The position numbers and the translations under genes are program-made. A DNA stretch of 56,462 nucleotides from a virus, in IMG/VR virus record IMGVR_UViG_3300012357_000006, positions 1 to 56,462 of that record; one strand, written 5' to 3'. Below, one piece after another: positions 7,645-50,768 of this stretch (positions are counted from its first letter, which is position 1; each line of letters begins with the position of its first letter). The notes below the pieces were generated by a model. The model was given only the letters and a program-made list of their open reading frames with translations. It made no database searches and was not told where the DNA came from.

Positions 7645-8005
7645 ACAATGATTTCAAAAAGTCCAGTGGTGGAGGCGTATCAAACCGTGTTACCGGAGTT
7701 TCTGGCTTCTCCAGATTACGCATGTCAATATCCCATGGCTACTCAACTGGACGGGAGTTCGACTCTCCCCAGGTCCACCAATACCTTCTCGCTGAGAAGT
7801 TTTTCTGCGGGCCTGACCCGGCTTCGACAGATGAGATTAGTGGTGGGAGGCTCGTGCCGAGAATGGACACCTCGTATAAAAGTGTACCAAATCATAAAAG
7901 TCAACACCATGTTGGCTAAGGTGATTGGGTTTCTAAAGTCCCTGGTGCCGACGTTCGAGTCCTTCGATACGTTCGCGCCTGCGGCTTTGGCAGCCTAGTC
8001 GCCGG
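7645..8005 (+). ncRNA. ssrA: Circularly permuted (two-piece) tmRNA
   Basis: The order is inverted relative to a normal tmRNA. The acceptor half comes first and ends with a T arm (GGGAG/CTCCC around TTCGACT, 7753-7769) and an encoded CCA at 7778-7780. After a 28-base intervening segment (7781-7808), the coding half begins at 7809 with the tmRNA-specific 5' end (GGGCCTG, then GGCTTCGAC). GGGCCTG (7809-7815) pairs with CAGGTCC (7770-7776) over 7 bp with one G-U. TAGTGGTGGGA in the coding half pairs with TCCCATGGCTA in the acceptor half, forming helix P2 with one mismatch. GTGCCGAG...CCTCGTA matches the PK1 region. AAAAGTC precedes the resume codon, and the tag frame (7903-7998) ends AALAA then TAG. 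The 5' boundary is estimated from the promoter. No smpB is in the window. Confidence 0.9.
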
Positions 8006-8032
8006 GTGGGGCTGTCCAAAAGATGGCCCCAC
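8006..8032 (+). terminator. Hairpin at the end of the tmRNA gene
   Basis: GTGGGGCT (8006-8013) pairs with GGCCCCAC (8025-8032), an 8 bp stem with one G-U pair and an 11-base loop. It is followed by a weak T/A-rich run rather than a proper T tract, so it may be a modest terminator or a 3' end stabiliser/processing signal for the coding piece. Confidence 0.5.
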
Positions 8033-8051
8033 TTACTAATTAGGAGGTAAT

Positions 8052-8198
8052 ATGGCAGCGAAAAAGAAAGCAAAGAAGAAATCCACGGTGAAAACTCGCG
8101 AGGCGAAAAAGAAAGTTCTGGCAATATCTGCGCCTCCCTACGAGCCGGAACCGTTTGAAGGATTTGATGAAGATTTTGACGACGGCGGAGAAGCATGA
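8052..8198 (+). CDS. Small bipolar protein, basic head and acidic tail, 48 aa
   Basis: A strong ribosome site TAGGAGG lies 8 bases before ATG 8052, and the stop overlaps the next ATG (ATGA at 8195). The first half is nearly all Lys/Ala (AAKKKAKKK), the last third is Asp/Glu/Gly-rich (GFDEDFDDGGE). Such polar peptides often bind nucleic acid at one end and protein at the other. Function unknown. Confidence 0.6.
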   Translation: MAAKKKAKKKSTVKTREAKKKVLAISAPPYEPEPFEGFDEDFDDGGEA

Positions 8199-31547: not shown

Positions 31548-33659
31548 TTATACCAGCGTCATTGACCAAGTGATGTCGTGAATGCCATCGGAAACAATCA
31601 CTATGTCATGCTCGCCCAGATTCAAAGCAGAAGTATCCATAGATGCCGGTGAATCAGTTCGTGCAGCCGTTCCATCGTTATATCCAAAACTGACTGCCAG
31701 GGTTCCCGCGCTCGGATTGGCCTGTAAAAAGAAATTAGCACTCAGTCGATATACACCAGCGGGTGGACTCTGTCCATTTATAAGAAGAGTCCCACTGAGC
31801 TTGTGCGTTGCCTGCGTCAAAACAACAACCGTCAATGCAAGCGGAGGTAACGCCGATGACGGAATATCCCCGGCAACGATAGGCCCAAATACCGGTTGCG
31901 CGGGGGCACCGCTGCTCGGGCCTCTCCAAAAGGTATTTGCAGATTGCGTTGCTAATCCAATTGTTATCTGGCCCGATCCATTTGGAACTGTAACCGTGAA
32001 AATGTTTGGCACCACAATTGAATTCATGCCATGGTAAGTTTTATAGTTCCCAGTCGCATCGGCAAAAATAACAACACCCTGATTCTGACCCAACGTTAAA
32101 TTTCCGGCCACACCGTCAATTGTCCGAGTGTTGTTCGAAATTGTGAGTACGCCCGTTCCTATATTTTCAACAAAAATCATCCATCCTGTTTCTGTAGAGC
32201 CCGAAGGCGGTGCTGAAACTGGATTCGGCAATGTCAATGTGACCGCAGAACTGGAATTGAATGAAAGCAATCGGCCGGAATCAGTAGAAATAGCCAAATA
32301 ATTTGCTGAAAGAATATCAACAGACCCCACACCAGGGCCGATTAAAGCCCAAGATGTAGGATCACTAAACGCATCCGTGGCCGTCTCGCGCAAGCATACA
32401 AACATTGAGCCACGAAATTCAACTACATCATAAGGTTCCCAACTCTGTATAATAGCCACTGGAAATTCAAAAGCTATGCCTACATCAGACGGCGTAGACC
32501 ATGTGCCAAAGCAAGCCATATCAACGGTGCCAGAATTCGATGACTGACAATAACCTACTGAGGCACCACACCCGAAGTGACTATCTCCATAGGGCACCCA
32601 TGTATTCCCAACCGTATCTGTAATTGAAACCAGGGATGCCACTGCATTATTGTCTCCCGTGATGCCGACAAAAACCAGAAGGCTACCTGATTTAACTGGG
32701 TTTGGAAATATGAGATGATCGGTCGTATTGCTATTGTTAGTTCCAGGGAAACTTGCTGACACCATCTGAAAATAAGGCAGCCACGTGACTGTTCCATTAT
32801 CAGCAGCCGGGCCATAGTTCGCGTGCGTAAAAGCAAAACTGAATGAACTCGCAGTCACGGCGGTGATTTGGGCCTGGGTACCGTTCAAAAAATTAGCGCC
32901 CGCCAATCCATTGACTATGATTTGAGTCCCAACTATAAATGCATTCACACATTGGCAAGTCACAACATTGCTAATGATCTGTACGGACGTTATACTTCCA
33001 GTCAGTGTTGGGAAACCGCCCTTGAAAAATAACAAGTTCGATCCCCATGGAAATCCTGTATTCGTCAGGGTGGTTGCTAAGGGTGCGGCAGTCGGCAATG
33101 CTTTAATAGCAACCGCTACCGCTCCTCCGCTGGTATATAATTTTACCCATGAAGAATCTAGGTCTGTCTCACGTTGACTCAGGGCAAGAAATGCAAGATC
33201 ATTCGGAGCAGAAGGAGTCAAGGAACCAATTACAGGACTACTACCGGCTGTACTGAAATTCAGTTTATGCCCATCAAAAAGTAAAACATTGGAACTAAAA
33301 ACTAGATTTTCTCCCAAAATTGTCCAATTCAAAGGATTTTGATCTGGGCGCAACCCTACACTACCTTGAATAGCCACATACGTGCTAAGATTTTGAACCA
33401 CAACATCGTTCACACTGTAAGCAATGAACGATTGCCATGTTCCTCGAAACAACAAGAACAAATCCGTGTCCGCAGGAGTGGAGGCTACTGACAACGTATT
33501 TTTAATAATCTGAATGCTACTAACTTCTTTAGGACCCGGAATAATCGTAAATGGCAAAAGTGGCCGCGTAGGACGAAATGTCACCGGCGTATATTGCGTC
33601 GGGCGTCCTTCTTGAAACTGCAAATCCTGAAGGTCTTTATTTACAATGTTGACAGCCAT
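31548..33659 (-). CDS. Tail appendage protein with carbohydrate-binding-like modules, 703 aa
   Basis: ATG 33659 overlaps the previous stop (TGATG). Early on there are chitinase-type binding module patterns: WQSFIAYSVNDVVVQNLSTYVAI followed by NPLNWTILG, and again SWEPYDVVEFRGSMFVCL followed by PTSWALIG. Between them sits a copy of the beta module SITDTVGNTWVPYG shared with the two appendage genes downstream. A GAPAQPVFGPIVAGDIP linker and a jelly-roll-like tip (about 590-703) end the protein. Probably part of the host-binding apparatus. Confidence 0.7.
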   Translation of the reverse strand: MAVNIVNKDLQDLQFQEGRPTQYTPVTFRPTRPLLPFTIIPGPKEVSSIQIIKNTLSVASTPADTDLFLLFRGTWQSFIAYSVNDVVVQNLSTYVAIQGSVGLRPDQNPLNWTILGENLVFSSNVLLFDGHKLNFSTAGSSPVIGSLTPSAPNDLAFLALSQRETDLDSSWVKLYTSGGAVAVAIKALPTAAPLATTLTNTGFPWGSNLLFFKGGFPTLTGSITSVQIISNVVTCQCVNAFIVGTQIIVNGLAGANFLNGTQAQITAVTASSFSFAFTHANYGPAADNGTVTWLPYFQMVSASFPGTNNSNTTDHLIFPNPVKSGSLLVFVGITGDNNAVASLVSITDTVGNTWVPYGDSHFGCGASVGYCQSSNSGTVDMACFGTWSTPSDVGIAFEFPVAIIQSWEPYDVVEFRGSMFVCLRETATDAFSDPTSWALIGPGVGSVDILSANYLAISTDSGRLLSFNSSSAVTLTLPNPVSAPPSGSTETGWMIFVENIGTGVLTISNNTRTIDGVAGNLTLGQNQGVVIFADATGNYKTYHGMNSIVVPNIFTVTVPNGSGQITIGLATQSANTFWRGPSSGAPAQPVFGPIVAGDIPSSALPPLALTVVVLTQATHKLSGTLLINGQSPPAGVYRLSANFFLQANPSAGTLAVSFGYNDGTAARTDSPASMDTSALNLGEHDIVIVSDGIHDITWSMTLV

Positions 33660-43221: not shown

Positions 43222-44079
43222 TTATCCGATTGTAGACTCGGCCGTGATGCGCCGGAACTTGTCGCTGGAAGCATGTGTCGGAGCAACGGCCAACCCAAAG
43301 AAGAAGTTGTATACCGAAGCCGCCTTGATCAAGGCTGCCGGATCAAGAGAATTCGAACCTTCTTGGAAGTTCACCGTCTTCACGGTAAAATTCTTCTGGT
43401 TCAGATTCGTCTTGCCGAGTGACGAGGCGATGAGCGCCTGGTGACCCACAACGTAAGAGTGATACGCTGTATGTGAGGAACTCTGCCAAGAAGCAGCAGT
43501 CGTGACAGCGTTCGATTCATACCACTCAACGCCGCCGACGTTTCCGATGTAAGCGCCCTTAATGCCAACAAGAGCCGGATTCGCAGAAGCCAATTTCTCG
43601 CTGTACTTCATCAAGTCAGCCATGCCGCTTGCGCTAGCATCGTTAACGAGATCGTATGCACCGAGAGAATGGATGACGCCAAAGAACAAGCCGTTAGCCT
43701 TGGGCTTCACGTCAAACGAACGGAGTTGCCAAACCGCCTTACGGGCGATGGCCGCGTTCATGTAGTTGCCGTCGTTCACGTCGATTCTGTCTAGAGTGGT
43801 TGCGGCCGCTGCCGTATCAACCGCCGTCCAAATGACGGTATCAACAGACAGAGCGCCACGATACGCCAGCAGTGAGGAACCTTCAGCAACCGTGTTGGAA
43901 ATGGCCGTGAGAACAACCTTGTTCGTATAGCTGACGTAATCAGCATAGTTCGTCAGGTTGATAGTCGCCGTGTTCTGAGTCAAAGACTGACCAGCAGCAG
44001 GCGTGCCTTCAGTAACGCCGGTCGTATTGGCCGACATCTTGGTGTAGTCAAAGATTTGCATAGCTACACCAGACATATC
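43222..44079 (-). CDS. Major capsid protein, exon 2 (N4-gp56-like)
   Basis: After splicing, this 285-residue part follows exon 1 in frame, for a 331-residue protein. It begins DMSGVAMQIFDYTKMSANTT and continues with SLTQNTATINLTNYADYVSYTNKV (split), LAYRGALSVDTVIW, WQLRSFDVKPKANGLFFGVIHSLGAYDLV and the HTAYHSYVVG segment near the C-terminus, all usual for this capsid family. Alone, the frame has only a TTG at 44082, which I take to be intron sequence (its last base is the intron's terminal G). The capsid shell protein is the most abundant product of the phage. Confidence 0.85.
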   Translation of the reverse strand, partial: DMSGVAMQIFDYTKMSANTTGVTEGTPAAGQSLTQNTATINLTNYADYVSYTNKVVLTAISNTVAEGSSLLAYRGALSVDTVIWTAVDTAAAATTLDRIDVNDGNYMNAAIARKAVWQLRSFDVKPKANGLFFGVIHSLGAYDLVNDASASGMADLMKYSEKLASANPALVGIKGAYIGNVGGVEWYESNAVTTAASWQSSSHTAYHSYVVGHQALIASSLGKTNLNQKNFTVKTVNFQEGSNSLDPAALIKAASVYNFFFGLAVAPTHASSDKFRRITAESTIG

Positions 44080-44792
44080 CAATTTGTTACTAGCTATATT
44101 TAAATAGCCGGAAGAACCGCTTCGGATTCTTCTCTCATGCTTTCACATGAGTTCAGACTATCGCATCCCGTTTCCGGGTTCTCTCGCTTAGTCGTTGTAG
44201 GTCCAAATGAATTAAGATAATAGGATGCCTCAAGCAACGTTGTGACGTTATCCCGAGCATAACCTAACATCTTATTGCAAGGCTGACAGATCAACCCTCG
44301 AACGCATTTACCGCAAGAGGAGTGATTAGGACAGCAGCGATGGTCGTGATCAACCGCAAGACGCCCCTTTACAGAAGACTTCTTACAGATGGCACAAACA
44401 TAATTTTGTTTCCCCAATTGTTCTTTATACCACTCGATAGTTTTACCATAAGCACGTAATCGGCTCGCTAATCGAATATCAGAGAAACGCCCTTCGTCTC
44501 GAACCTGCTGTTCCCAGGTCTTTCGCTGTTCGGCTATATACTGACGATATTTATCATCGGTCGCATATCGCTCGCGTTTACAGCGGTTGACTTCTGTGTA
44601 ATCTTTTGACGAATTAATGCTTGAAATACAGTTCTTACACACTCTACGACCCGAATAGAAATCTTCGGAAGGCAGAGATTTACTACAGTGCTTGCAGATT
44701 TTCATTTGGTTCCTAAGGGTTGCCGTGGCGATCATAAGCCGCTTTAGGTTTTCCCAAAATCAGAGAGAATTTTACATGTCCAATTAAAGTCT
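44080..44792 (-). mobile_element. Group I intron in the major capsid gene (713 bases)
   Basis: On the minus strand the exon end CATGCCT pairs with GGACATG just inside the intron (P1, one mismatch, U-G at the cut), setting the 5' site after ATGCCT. The 3' site follows the G of AAATTG, the only in-frame choice. P7 is GACTA (44193-44189) with TAGTC (44160-44156); P8 is a CCCG-GAAA-CGGG hairpin; a P9-like CTCATG/CATGAG stem follows. TGGGAAAACCTAAAG and GGCAACCCTTAGG near the 5' end fit the P and Q elements. It holds the endonuclease gene 44100-44705. Confidence 0.85.
44100..44705 (-). CDS. Intron-encoded endonuclease VII-like homing endonuclease, 201 aa
   Basis: ATG 44705 has AAGGAA close upstream and is preferred to the longer 44735 start. 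N-terminal zinc ribbon: ICKHCSKSLP and RVCKNCISS. The catalytic part has NYVCAICKKSSVKGRLAVDHDHRCC (split; the DHDH pair is the His-Me-finger core), then VRGLICQPCNKMLGYARDN, all typical of the recombination endonuclease VII family. The last 30 residues are read from the intron's P7-P9 core, so protein and ribozyme share sequence. It should make the DNA cut that spreads the intron. Confidence 0.88.
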   Translation of the reverse strand: MKICKHCSKSLPSEDFYSGRRVCKNCISSINSSKDYTEVNRCKRERYATDDKYRQYIAEQRKTWEQQVRDEGRFSDIRLASRLRAYGKTIEWYKEQLGKQNYVCAICKKSSVKGRLAVDHDHRCCPNHSSCGKCVRGLICQPCNKMLGYARDNVTTLLEASYYLNSFGPTTTKRENPETGCDSLNSCESMREESEAVLPAI

Positions 44793-44930
44793 AGGCATGA
44801 TCTTCAAATCGCAAGCTGCATAGCCAAACAAGTTGGCATACAGCGTATCAAGCGCCACACGGTCATAGTAGACCGTCGGGTAAGCCGCAAGTCCGCTAGA
44901 AATAACGGAGGCGGCGGTAGGTAGTGCCAT
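44793..44930 (-). CDS. Major capsid protein, exon 1
   Basis: ATG 44930 has AAGGTGA upstream. The exon encodes 46 residues: MALPTAASVISSGLAAYP, then TVYYDRVALDTLYANLFGY, ending DLKIMP. This is the usual N-terminus of N4-gp56-like capsid proteins (LAAYPTVYYDxxALxxL). Unspliced, translation would stop two codons into the intron (after RL). Joined to exon 2 it reads KIMP-DMSGVAMQIF, matching the expected continuous protein. Confidence 0.85.
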
Positions 44931-46693: not shown

Positions 46694-48781
46694 TTATTGC
46701 TGTGGTGCCTGTCCTTCAGTCATTTGAGAAAGTGCATCCTGTGCCATATTCAAATGGGATTCGGCCGCTTTCTTTACAAGCGCTACGCCCGCCTGAACCG
46801 TACCCTTCTCATTTATATTCTCTAAATCATTCTGATGCTTGAGACTCTCCGTAACCTGATCTTGCTGACCTTTTGCGTAAGCGGTGTTTTGTTCCTGCAT
46901 ACGCTTCAGGTCGTCCTCGGTCATCTTTCGGAAGTAGTGATCAACGTCGAATCCTTGAGCATCAAGCATATCCGCCGCCCAGTTCGCATAATCGAACTTC
47001 ATGGCTTGAACTTGCAATGATGATTGAACGGCCGGGGCGCTCAATAACTGAATAATCAGTGGAGCCAATTGAGCCGAAGCAGCCCGAGCAGTCAAATCAG
47101 CGCCAGCCAAAACATCTATACCAATCTGGGCATTATAGATATCAACGATATCACCGCCCCACTCTTTACCTTCTTCTTCAGTAAGAATGCGATTGATGTC
47201 TTCTGGTTGGAGATGCTCCATGCATAACAGCATGAACTTTTCCAGAGTAGGGAGATAGATCATATTGATAAAAATTTCAAGGAAGTATTGCAAGCGCTGA
47301 ATAACATCACCCGTCAAAGCCTGCACACCAGAACCTGTGCGCAATGCTTGAGTCGGGAGATTTACTCCGCCCTCCGCGCCAATGCGCTTCGATGCCCGTG
47401 CTTCCGAATTTGCCATTGCAGCGACAGCGGCACCGCTAACATCTGGCGTCACCAAAGGCTTCAATTCTGAAGTCTCAGTGATAACACGCCCAGGAGCTAG
47501 TGGAATGTTCTGCGTTCCTGGTCCCACACCTTTTAAGGCTTGGAAAACTGGATTAAGAACTAGAGCTAACGAATCAATCCAACTATTCGCTACACCAGCC
47601 TGAAATCTTTGCTCACCGGCCAGTAATCGAGCAACGCCGAAACCCCATGCACTGCCTAGCACGTCGATAAATGCGCACGTGCGTCCAGGAATTTCACCGT
47701 ACTCATTCTCACCATTCCGAATGACTAATTTCCGCTGCAAAATACCGATAACGTGATTTTCTGACCAGTATTCGATGTACTCCAAAGGCTTCATCAGCGG
47801 ATCAGCCGAAGAACCTTCAGAATCTAACTGTGCTTGAAATTCACGCCATACAGCGCGCTTTTGACTCGCAAATGTGTCTTCAGTCTGTTCCCGATCAGTC
47901 GCAAGAACCTTACGCAACGTCTCACGATCAGGAATACGGCTAATTCTCTTTCCGGTTTTTTTACCTTCGGAATCTATTTCGGGTTTACCGTAAGTATCAG
48001 TATCTTCGCGCCAATCATCCAGAGTGTTAGCAGTGATCATCACCTGCTTGGCAATCCATCGTGCGCCATCGGCAACATTTTGCCGTTTGCACTGGGGATC
48101 AAAAGAGAAACTCTTCAAATCAATGTTCTCGAACTTAGGCAAGTTCAACAGAATGTCTTTCCAGATACCTTTTACCCGGCCAGCCTGGTTCTTCGAGTAA
48201 ACTCGCTCACGAACATTCTTTTGCTCCCAACCCCACCAACCAACACAAAAGCCATAACTGAGGCATTGCTTAAGTGTCAACCGCATCTCTTCTTTGAGCC
48301 CGGCCTGCTTAATAGCCCAAGCCAGAACCGACGCTTTTGCACGAGCCGCCTCTGGTGTTGTCTTCCCCACAGGCGTAATTACAAACGGTCGGCGCTTACC
48401 AGTTCCAAACAAACTCATGTAGAACACAGGCATCAGCTTCTCAATGCCTTCCATAACAGCATAGATCGGAAGGTTCGCCCGAGGCTTGCCATCAGCCCAT
48501 ACACGGGGCTTCTGGAGCCCAAAAATCAAATCATTTGAGGTATCAACTAACGCTGGCAGTAAAGCCTTTGACTGAAGGAATGCAATTCCCGCCGAGACAT
48601 CAGTAAGAACTAGCCCCATCGCCGTCTCATCGGTAAATTCCTCACCGTGGAACGCCGTATTTTCCTCTAAGACGGGGGACACTGCGGACAGCGCAGCACC
48701 TTGATTAACTGCTTCAGGAAGGTTGGCAAACCCACCGCCGCTACCTATTCCAGCAGTGTTGTCGATTGTACCGCCGGACAT
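46694..48781 (-). CDS. Portal protein, 695 aa
   Basis: The size, place between terminase and scaffold, and sequence fit a podovirus portal: an N-terminal region with LLPALVDTSNDLIFGLQKPRVW, then FVITPVGKTTPEAARAKASVL and LKQCLSYGFCVGWWGWEQ, a central stem-like part with LGSAWGFGVARLLAGEQRFQAGVAN, and a helical C-terminus ending in Gln/Glu-rich coiled coil. Twelve copies should form the DNA channel at one capsid vertex. The first bases overlap the end of the HNH gene. Confidence 0.85.
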   Translation of the reverse strand: MSGGTIDNTAGIGSGGGFANLPEAVNQGAALSAVSPVLEENTAFHGEEFTDETAMGLVLTDVSAGIAFLQSKALLPALVDTSNDLIFGLQKPRVWADGKPRANLPIYAVMEGIEKLMPVFYMSLFGTGKRRPFVITPVGKTTPEAARAKASVLAWAIKQAGLKEEMRLTLKQCLSYGFCVGWWGWEQKNVRERVYSKNQAGRVKGIWKDILLNLPKFENIDLKSFSFDPQCKRQNVADGARWIAKQVMITANTLDDWREDTDTYGKPEIDSEGKKTGKRISRIPDRETLRKVLATDREQTEDTFASQKRAVWREFQAQLDSEGSSADPLMKPLEYIEYWSENHVIGILQRKLVIRNGENEYGEIPGRTCAFIDVLGSAWGFGVARLLAGEQRFQAGVANSWIDSLALVLNPVFQALKGVGPGTQNIPLAPGRVITETSELKPLVTPDVSGAAVAAMANSEARASKRIGAEGGVNLPTQALRTGSGVQALTGDVIQRLQYFLEIFINMIYLPTLEKFMLLCMEHLQPEDINRILTEEEGKEWGGDIVDIYNAQIGIDVLAGADLTARAASAQLAPLIIQLLSAPAVQSSLQVQAMKFDYANWAADMLDAQGFDVDHYFRKMTEDDLKRMQEQNTAYAKGQQDQVTESLKHQNDLENINEKGTVQAGVALVKKAAESHLNMAQDALSQMTEGQAPQQ

Positions 48782-49066: not shown

Positions 49067-50737
49067 TCAGTCAGGAATTATATTTATTGTCCCTTGAACT
49101 ACTGACCAAGGTGAAGCAAACGCATCAAATCCGTCGCTCGGGTCTGCTTGAATCTTTTGGCGCTCAAGAATTTGATCACTTAGTGTCTGCTGTCGAGCCA
49201 TTTCGAGTATCGGGTTGATACTAGGTCGAATCGGTTCAGTGCTCATCTGACCGACCATATGGGTAGCGAACAAGGCTATTGTGTCAGCATAATCATCGTG
49301 CTTGTGCTTACCACCCGGAAACATCTCAAACTGTTGAACGACTTTCTCCCACTGCAAGATACCATCGAAGAACCGAAGTTTTTTGTATTGCATCAGTCCT
49401 TGAAGACTGGCGATACGAGTATACTTCGCATCCTTCTTCTGATCGATCTTCAAGAAGTCCAAAGGGAGAAAAACTTTCTTGTCACGAGCAACAAGACGCA
49501 AGTAATCCATAAAATAAATACAAGAACTCGACTTCTCAAGGTAAATCGTGGTTGGTCGGTATTCGAGCGCCGCAAGGATCACCTGCTCCGCAAACATTGG
49601 GGGAAGCCATCTACCACCCCGAACGTCCACTACATATTGAGTCATCTTCAAATCGTGCTTGCCTATTACAATGCACGAGTCGTCGGACTCTTCAGAATCT
49701 GTGCTGGCGAGATCAATAAAGAAAACAGCCGGGCTTAAATTCCCGACTACTAATTCTGGAAGGGCTCTTGCCCGATTCACACTCTGGCCTGTCTGATCAA
49801 ACCACTTGACTACACATGAAGTCAACAGAGCCTTAGTGAACCGCTGGCCGCCCTTCTGAATCGGTTGATTCAAATACTGAGATGCGAACATCTCAGGATC
49901 GCTATCACGCATGAACTCAAGTTGTTCTCGCGTGAAGCCGATCAGTTTCTTTTTATCTCTCGATTCCTGCTGTGGGAACAGCGGTATCGTGTGCTTCTCA
50001 TCAACCCAACAAATTCGAAAACTTATTCTCCACTCGCCTTTCAGATTGTTACGCATTACATTCTCATATGTATCCCCGAATGCGTAGCGAGTTCCAGTCA
50101 TCACCGCATAGAATGGCGGGTCCAACAAAGGCAAACAGGCAAAGAAATCTTGTTGGACTCGTGCCAACTTTGTTACTGACCTATAATTCTGGTCATTGAC
50201 AAGATCATCAAAGAAACCGATATCATAGTGAGTACCGGTCTTTATCGAATGCGGTGAAGCTACCGTTACCGTCGCTTGCGCCAGCCCCATATTCAGCCGG
50301 GCTGGTACCGTAAAGGACATTGCGTTGCCGAGTTCACCGTCAGTACAAAACTCAGGAAAGAAATCCTCAAGATGAGAATTTGGATTTTTGCCGACAAAGT
50401 GCGCTCGAATCTCATTCATCCAAGCCTTAGTGATCTGGATACTACCCCGCATAATCAGAATGCGAATGTCGGGAAAATTCAAAATCGCCTGAATGATGTC
50501 TACAATCACAGCCGTCGTTTTGTAATGACCGCGAGGCCACAGGATCAAAATCTTGGCGATGTCTGACTGCTTCGCCCACTGCTTATGATCATCATAGGAG
50601 AAAAATTGCTTCCACAACTCAGCATGTACCGCAGGAACGAAATCGTAACCAAGGACTTCGGATAGATACTGCTTGTCGGTCTTACATCGCTGCCGACCTT
50701 CCTCAATTCTTAACTGCGCTTCCGTTTTTAATGCCAT
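49067..50737 (-). CDS. terL: Terminase large subunit, 556 aa
   Basis: ATG 50737 is preferred to TTG 50743. ATPase part: a Walker A variant LWPRGHYKTT (about 66-75), MRGSIQITKAW as the following motif, and Walker B DIGFFDDL (about 172-179). TGTRYAFGD is the coupling motif region. Nuclease part: VFFIDLASTD with the first Asp, YLEKSSSCIYFMD with Glu, and KHKHDDYADTIALFA with the last Asp pair. The enzyme cuts and pumps DNA into the head. No certain small subunit is seen; the 125-residue protein at 52318 is the best candidate. Confidence 0.9.
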   Translation of the reverse strand: MALKTEAQLRIEEGRQRCKTDKQYLSEVLGYDFVPAVHAELWKQFFSYDDHKQWAKQSDIAKILILWPRGHYKTTAVIVDIIQAILNFPDIRILIMRGSIQITKAWMNEIRAHFVGKNPNSHLEDFFPEFCTDGELGNAMSFTVPARLNMGLAQATVTVASPHSIKTGTHYDIGFFDDLVNDQNYRSVTKLARVQQDFFACLPLLDPPFYAVMTGTRYAFGDTYENVMRNNLKGEWRISFRICWVDEKHTIPLFPQQESRDKKKLIGFTREQLEFMRDSDPEMFASQYLNQPIQKGGQRFTKALLTSCVVKWFDQTGQSVNRARALPELVVGNLSPAVFFIDLASTDSEESDDSCIVIGKHDLKMTQYVVDVRGGRWLPPMFAEQVILAALEYRPTTIYLEKSSSCIYFMDYLRLVARDKKVFLPLDFLKIDQKKDAKYTRIASLQGLMQYKKLRFFDGILQWEKVVQQFEMFPGGKHKHDDYADTIALFATHMVGQMSTEPIRPSINPILEMARQQTLSDQILERQKIQADPSDGFDAFASPWSVVQGTINIIPD

Positions 50738-50768
50738 AGTCAACCGATGATCAGAAACAAAATCAAAA

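Follow-up and report, generated by a model that had tools for sequence, protein, structure and literature searches.

The major capsid gene of the phage described here is almost certainly interrupted by a mobile group I intron, which would splice itself out of the capsid mRNA and spread into intronless alleles by means of the endonuclease it encodes. The window, by which we mean the whole stretch of DNA analysed, is a virus record of 56,462 bases; its capsid region lies on the minus strand, as do all features of the capsid gene and intron given below. The window also encodes a terminase large subunit (49067-50743) and contains matches to a head-tail adaptor family (46694-48781) and a tail fibre (31548-33659). 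A permuted tmRNA is found on its plus strand at 7720-7998 (RF04321, 77.7 bits), and ARAGORN reports a tmRNA at 7688-8089 whose long tag ends in APAALAA.

Exon 1 of the capsid gene (44793..44930; 138 nt, 46 codons, MALPT...DLKIMP) is the open reading frame 44930-44784 through codon 46. Exon 2 (43222..44079) is taken from 44079 within the open reading frame 43222-44082, with 855 coding nt or 285 codons at 44079-43225 and a stop at 43224-43222, and matches the major head protein family phrog_1357 at 2.5e-11. Between them lies the 713-nt intron (44080..44792), preceded by a U at the 5' splice site and ending in G. A preliminary description had proposed this intron position, these exon lengths and an in-frame join, and all of them check: joined, the exons encode a 331-aa protein without interruption. 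Read through into the intron, the exon 1 frame stops after 48 codons, two of them intron codons, and capsid production would therefore depend on splicing. An intein was considered and rejected, as the insert is not open in phase with exon 1 and stops after those two codons.

A search of IMG/VR with exon 2 returned six loci (L001-L006). Two of these, L001 and L002, match the window without a difference, also across the intron; as identical copies, possibly of the same phage population, they carry no independent evidence. The other four have an exon 2 that is 93-94% identical to that of the window and no intron. Each has a single 331-aa capsid open reading frame reading DLKIMPDMSGVAMQIF over the junction KIMP|DMSG (the bar marks the junction), in which the 46 codons of exon 1 are present in frame. 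The homologues thus cross the junction exactly where the preliminary description had placed it, and the insert is precisely absent from them with the exons in frame. Their junction DNA is CATGCC[T/C]|GA[T/C]ATG, and the window reads CATGCCT|AGACTT...CAAATTG|GATATG at its splice sites; a shift by one base either way spoils the match to the intronless alleles, and the intron limits are therefore exactly 44792 and 44080. Purifying selection acts on both exons: dN/dS against the four intronless loci is 0.02-0.04 in exon 1 and 0.05-0.06 in exon 2.

The insert has a group I core with a P3/P7 pseudoknot in which P3, P6, P7 and P8 pair fully and P4 is weak. In P1 (44775..44799), exon bases CAUGCCU (44799-44793) pair with the guide GGACAUG (44781-44775) at six of seven positions, the exception being a C-A mismatch; the 5' splice-site pair is U44793.G44781 and the terminal intron base is G44080. 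The P3 strands UUCUCUC (44763..44769) and GAGAGAA (44179..44185) form 7/7 pairs, all of which covary across relatives. Within the P4-P5 region (44717..44755), P4 pairs GGG (44755-44753) with CCC (44719-44717); at 3 bp it is less certain in the window and is based on homology to the P4 of the L047/L054 type. The P6 5' strand UAGG (44715-44712) and the P6a strand CCAAAUGAA, which holds an ATG, together occupy 44701..44715, and the P6a/P6 3' strand UUCAUUUGGACCUA (44198..44211) is kept in L012, a more distant locus described below. The pairs are complete in both helices (UAGG/CCUA, 4/4; CCAAAUGAA/UUCAUUUGG, 9/9) and are also predicted by free folding. P7 pairs GACUA (44189..44193) with UAGUC (44156..44160) at 5/5 positions, and the P8 hairpin CCCG-GAAA-CGGG (44167..44178) has 4/4 pairs that covary in relatives. 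Downstream follow the hairpins P9 (44134..44151) and P9.1 (44111..44132), the latter different in L012 yet still fitting the model, and then P9.2 (GCUAU/AUAGC) with the 3' terminal motif AGUAACAAAUUG and terminal G (44080..44108). An unconstrained fold of the window recovers P3, P6, P8, P9 and P9.1. P1 with its U.G pair, P7, P8 with a GAAA loop and P9, all named in the preliminary description, are present. Given the C-A mismatch in P1 and just three clear pairs in P4, splicing efficiency is uncertain. Subgroup IA, the usual one in phages, is defined by P7.1/P7.2 between P3 and P8. P7.1/P7.2 were not found in the window, where the 3' strand of P3 (44179) adjoins P8 (44178), nor in any of 49 relatives, and the intron appears to be one that lacks these IA-typical elements.

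Covariation was assessed on an alignment of 49 diverse ORF-less cores of family relatives, with the window left out. RNAalifold recovers P3, P4, P5, P6 and P8 unaided from this alignment, and with P7 added to the structure 98.0% of cells are paired, a fraction that drops to 40-53% for slid structures. Of 30 pairs, 22 change on both sides (reached in 0/500 shuffles), and there are 264 double-change cells compared with 72 expected from shuffles. The P3-P8 pairing is thus strongly supported by covariation in relatives. L012 carries this intron too, at the insertion site seen in the window, in a capsid gene whose exon 2 is 68% identical, and its P7 and P8 are altered in compensating ways; P7 reads GACUG/CAGUC in L012 and seven relatives, a compensatory change relative to GACUA/UAGUC in the window. 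In the same locus (L012:1-295) the endonuclease frame is shifted by one base and the RNA core is retained.

A covariance model of the intron 3' half (R1), trained on the 49 relatives without the window, gives the window a score of 99 bits (E 1.3e-22), with a match that starts at 44203 and ends exactly on the 3' splice site, 44080. What P7-P8 contributes to this score is in part built in, because the training contigs were gathered by a pattern from the window, L012 and L023 cores. P9, P9.1, P9.2 and the 3' end motif GUAACARAnUG, which is common to the family, were not used in selecting contigs. The next-best match anywhere in the window scores 12.6 bits, and L012 scores 87 bits. A search with Rfam Intron_gpI (RF00028), which the preliminary description had offered as a check, did not bear the intron out: the best score in the window was 12.7 bits (searched at the gathering threshold and with E values up to 10) against a gathering cutoff of 50, so the group I identification does not rest on Rfam. 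None of the family loci searched reaches the RF00028 gathering score, and the model also misses the published introns of phages Tuc2009 and LittleE, while the T4 nrdD intron scores 105 bits. The RF00028 miss is a matter of database coverage and not a defining feature of group I introns, and the model has been stated to be incomplete (PMC11878797). No match to an Rfam group II intron turned up.

The intron carries a homing endonuclease gene of the endonuclease VII-like HNH type (44100..44705), placed in loop P6 and ending at a TAA (44102-44100) in the P9.2 loop. The protein is 201 aa long from ATG 44705 or 211 aa from ATG 44735, matches PF02945 over residues 94-175 (5.3e-18) and phrog_2633 (4e-23), and keeps the invariant residues DHDH and two zinc CxxC motifs. 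A Shine-Dalgarno-like AGGA (44711..44714) overlaps the 5' strand of P6 at a 5-nt spacing from ATG 44705, which is probably the true start. Both AGGA and ATG lie inside the P6 stem, and splicing and endonuclease translation should therefore exclude each other. Masking of the ribosome-binding site, and loss of splicing once ribosomes enter the core, have been reported for T4 td (PMC2988022).

At its other end the gene runs into the ribozyme core. The preliminary description had the last 30 codons doubling as P7-P9; the overlap exists, but comprises 31 codons (44103..44195) from P7, which begins at codon 181 of 211, to P9.2. Among the best 60 phage matches listed, the alignment ends mostly at residues 174-187 and never past 194 of 211, and 10 of 11 IMG/VR relatives end at most nine residues from a conserved YL motif. 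The codons directly after this motif in the window (NSF) are the 3' strand of P6a, and the 31 codons from P7 onward have no counterpart in the endonuclease relatives. The end of the nuclease domain coincides with the start of P6/P7, the place at which free-standing relatives stop. AlphaFold pLDDT, from a 12-sequence alignment, lies at ~84-90 over a large part of the helical and nuclease core and falls to about 45-53, mostly <55, over the tail. As relatives stop there and tail pLDDT is low, we read the tail as translated ribozyme core outside the nuclease fold. An endonuclease gene overlapping an intron core has been described before (PMC3984707, figure 2b).

Taken as a mechanism, the intron would be transcribed within the capsid mRNA and fold into P3-P9.2. 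P1 would set U at 44793 into the active site for attack by guanosine, and exon 1 would then be joined to exon 2 at G44080 to give the 331-aa capsid protein; unspliced mRNA would yield just a truncated 48-aa peptide. The intron-encoded HNH protein would cleave the KIMP|DMSG site of capsid alleles that lack the intron, and repair would copy the intron in. The folded ribozyme would hide the endonuclease start and a translating ribosome would melt the core; each RNA molecule would either splice or make endonuclease. Few phage proteins are usually produced in greater amounts than the capsid, and an intron in its gene has to splice well.

Three other explanations were weighed against such a mobile, splicing intron. 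We regard it as extremely improbable that the insert stays unspliced and the capsid consists of two separate polypeptides, with exon 2 started at TTG 44082 or ATG 44076. In-frame TTG and ATG codons do lie near the start of exon 2, and in MW202674 two coat-protein CDSs are annotated with such an intron between them, but no Shine-Dalgarno-like sequence precedes either codon in the window, the joined gene matches intronless genes in length and frame, and the insert shows covarying group I structure. A second suggestion is that the intron is degenerate and splices poorly, in a defective phage lineage or a record of a rare variant. The P1 mismatch, the short P4 and the broken endonuclease frame of L012 could be taken as signs of decay; against them stand the intact P3, P7 and P8 core, the compensatory changes between the window and L012, the unchanged intron in L001 and L002 and the low capsid dN/dS, and we consider decay improbable.

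Less easily dismissed, though still unlikely, is an endonuclease that is dead or irrelevant, with the intron persisting by vertical descent alone. It would fit the L012 frameshift and a family in which most members are ORF-less (118/151 with a P3-P7 distance of at most 110 nt). The window itself, however, has its HNH and zinc-ligand residues intact and a frame open across 201-211 codons.

The window intron belongs to a larger family. A motif search over P7-P8 found it in at least 120 IMG/VR contigs and in 12 contigs of bacterial or archaeal assemblies, figures that are a lower bound from a single pattern. There are 151 copies in all. P1 and an in-frame exon join were assigned for 18 of 89 ORF-less introns, with lengths of about 200-310 nt, by a crude script demanding 50 open codons on either side. 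The copies in bacterial or archaeal bins (L145-L156; Parachlamydia, Methanomicrobiales, Paenibacillus, Clostridium and others) are probably in prophage or phage contigs. Five contigs (L034, L041, L062, L068, L081) carry two or three family introns, apparently inside one capsid gene in L041 and L081. L024 (L023:2895-3321) consists of two tandem ORF-less introns, the first near the 3' end of another capsid gene and the second directly after its stop codon.

Where members carry medium inserts in loop L6, 13 of 15 have an ATG open reading frame of at least 50 codons that enters the core, compared with 0.15 predicted from shuffled inserts. Most of these frames start no more than a few bases downstream of ACAAGGGGCAAG or a close variant, and the conserved P4'/P6 strand appears to serve as their Shine-Dalgarno-like sequence. 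Most stop at a UGA directly after P7, giving a common tail QPERL...DAIV. Small open reading frames of 55-83 aa are seen in the P6 loops of 11 loci (L032, L038, L045, L057, L061, L068, L074, L091, L102, L117, L146); those of L045, L068 and L102 look like short CPxC proteins. Searches with the small L6 proteins of relatives gave nothing significant in Pfam, PHROGs or, for a single one, phage genomes. By eye, the proteins encoded in larger inserts resemble LAGLIDADG or HNH endonucleases. One conserved ribozyme element giving a start signal and a tail to many unrelated open reading frames may be new.

Most non-redundant family members interrupt major head genes, unlike IA-type controls. In a non-redundant set of 60 downstream exons, phrog_1357 is matched by 21 and phrog_283 by 13. 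Both families are major head proteins, and their matches showed no overlap in seven members checked; further exons match other head, tape-measure, portal, terminase and ribonucleotide reductase families. An apparent 57% identity of L111 to the window exon was rejected, the C-terminus being unrelated and the alignment short and due to chance. The control consists of 35 downstream frames of IA-type introns from the same collection, found with another pattern. Their families include DNA polymerase, ribonucleotide reductase, terminase, dUTPase and tail fibre, and of the 25 shown one is a major head protein. The contrast is strong, although the two sets were chosen in slightly different ways and do not match exactly: each control frame was the longest one open within 1.5 kb. 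The comparison argues that the capsid bias is not solely an effect of contig choice in IMG/VR. Phage group I introns are usually said to prefer nucleotide-metabolism genes (PMC12350094).

The window intron is ordinary in kind: introns in capsid genes, and endonuclease genes that overlap the core, have been described before. Mycobacteriophage LittleE (PMC3706429) likewise has a group I intron with an endonuclease gene in its major capsid gene, a U before the 5' splice site and a terminal G, and its splicing was demonstrated by RT-PCR and protein sequencing (PMC3706429). Unlike in the window, its endonuclease frame is on the opposite strand without a sense-strand overlap of the core, and R1 did not detect the LittleE intron. 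Lactococcal phage Tuc2009 (orf37/38/39) also has a group I intron with an HNH endonuclease frame in its major head gene, and R1 finds no match at that intron. The T4 introns in td, nrdB and nrdD with I-TevI/II/III (PMC2988022) resemble the window in having an intron open reading frame whose ribosome-binding site lies in RNA structure, and in that ribosome entry into the core harms splicing, as we propose here. They differ in residing in metabolic genes and encoding other endonuclease families, and T4 nrdD scores only 15 bits with R1. In crAss-like phages, several group I introns have been described in one MCP gene (PMC7886860). Two annotated phage genomes contain introns of or near the family. 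Podoviridae sp. ctn9Y15 (MW202674.1 16569-18084; R1 137.7 bits) has a same-family intron in a P22-type coat gene, which is annotated as two CDSs around the unmarked intron. Roseobacter phage CRP-118 (OR420741.1 35055-35456; R1 32.2 bits) has a related one between what are annotated as two ribonucleotide reductase genes. Unlike that of the window, both introns are short and without endonuclease, and no intron is among the annotated features shown.

The window thus adds another clear case of a capsid intron, with intronless alleles at hand as controls. It also brings into view a family of phage group I introns, present in at least 120 contigs in one scan and undetected by RF00028, that hits capsid genes much more than nucleotide-metabolism genes. 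Where such introns split a capsid gene, the annotation shows fragments, MW202674 being an example, and capsid-based phage surveys may miss or misread these genes. More tentatively, as a possibility somewhat short of probable, the family could be an undescribed, capsid-specialised group I clade, largely invisible to Rfam, whose catalytic core also serves as an expression cassette for genes in loop P6: the P4'/P6 strand (ACAAGGGGCAAG; UUAGGA in the window) would act as Shine-Dalgarno sequence, and P6'-P7-P3'-P8 would supply C-terminal codons and a stop. If so, capsid splicing and intron-gene translation would form a built-in either/or switch, and many members would carry unknown small proteins in place of endonucleases.
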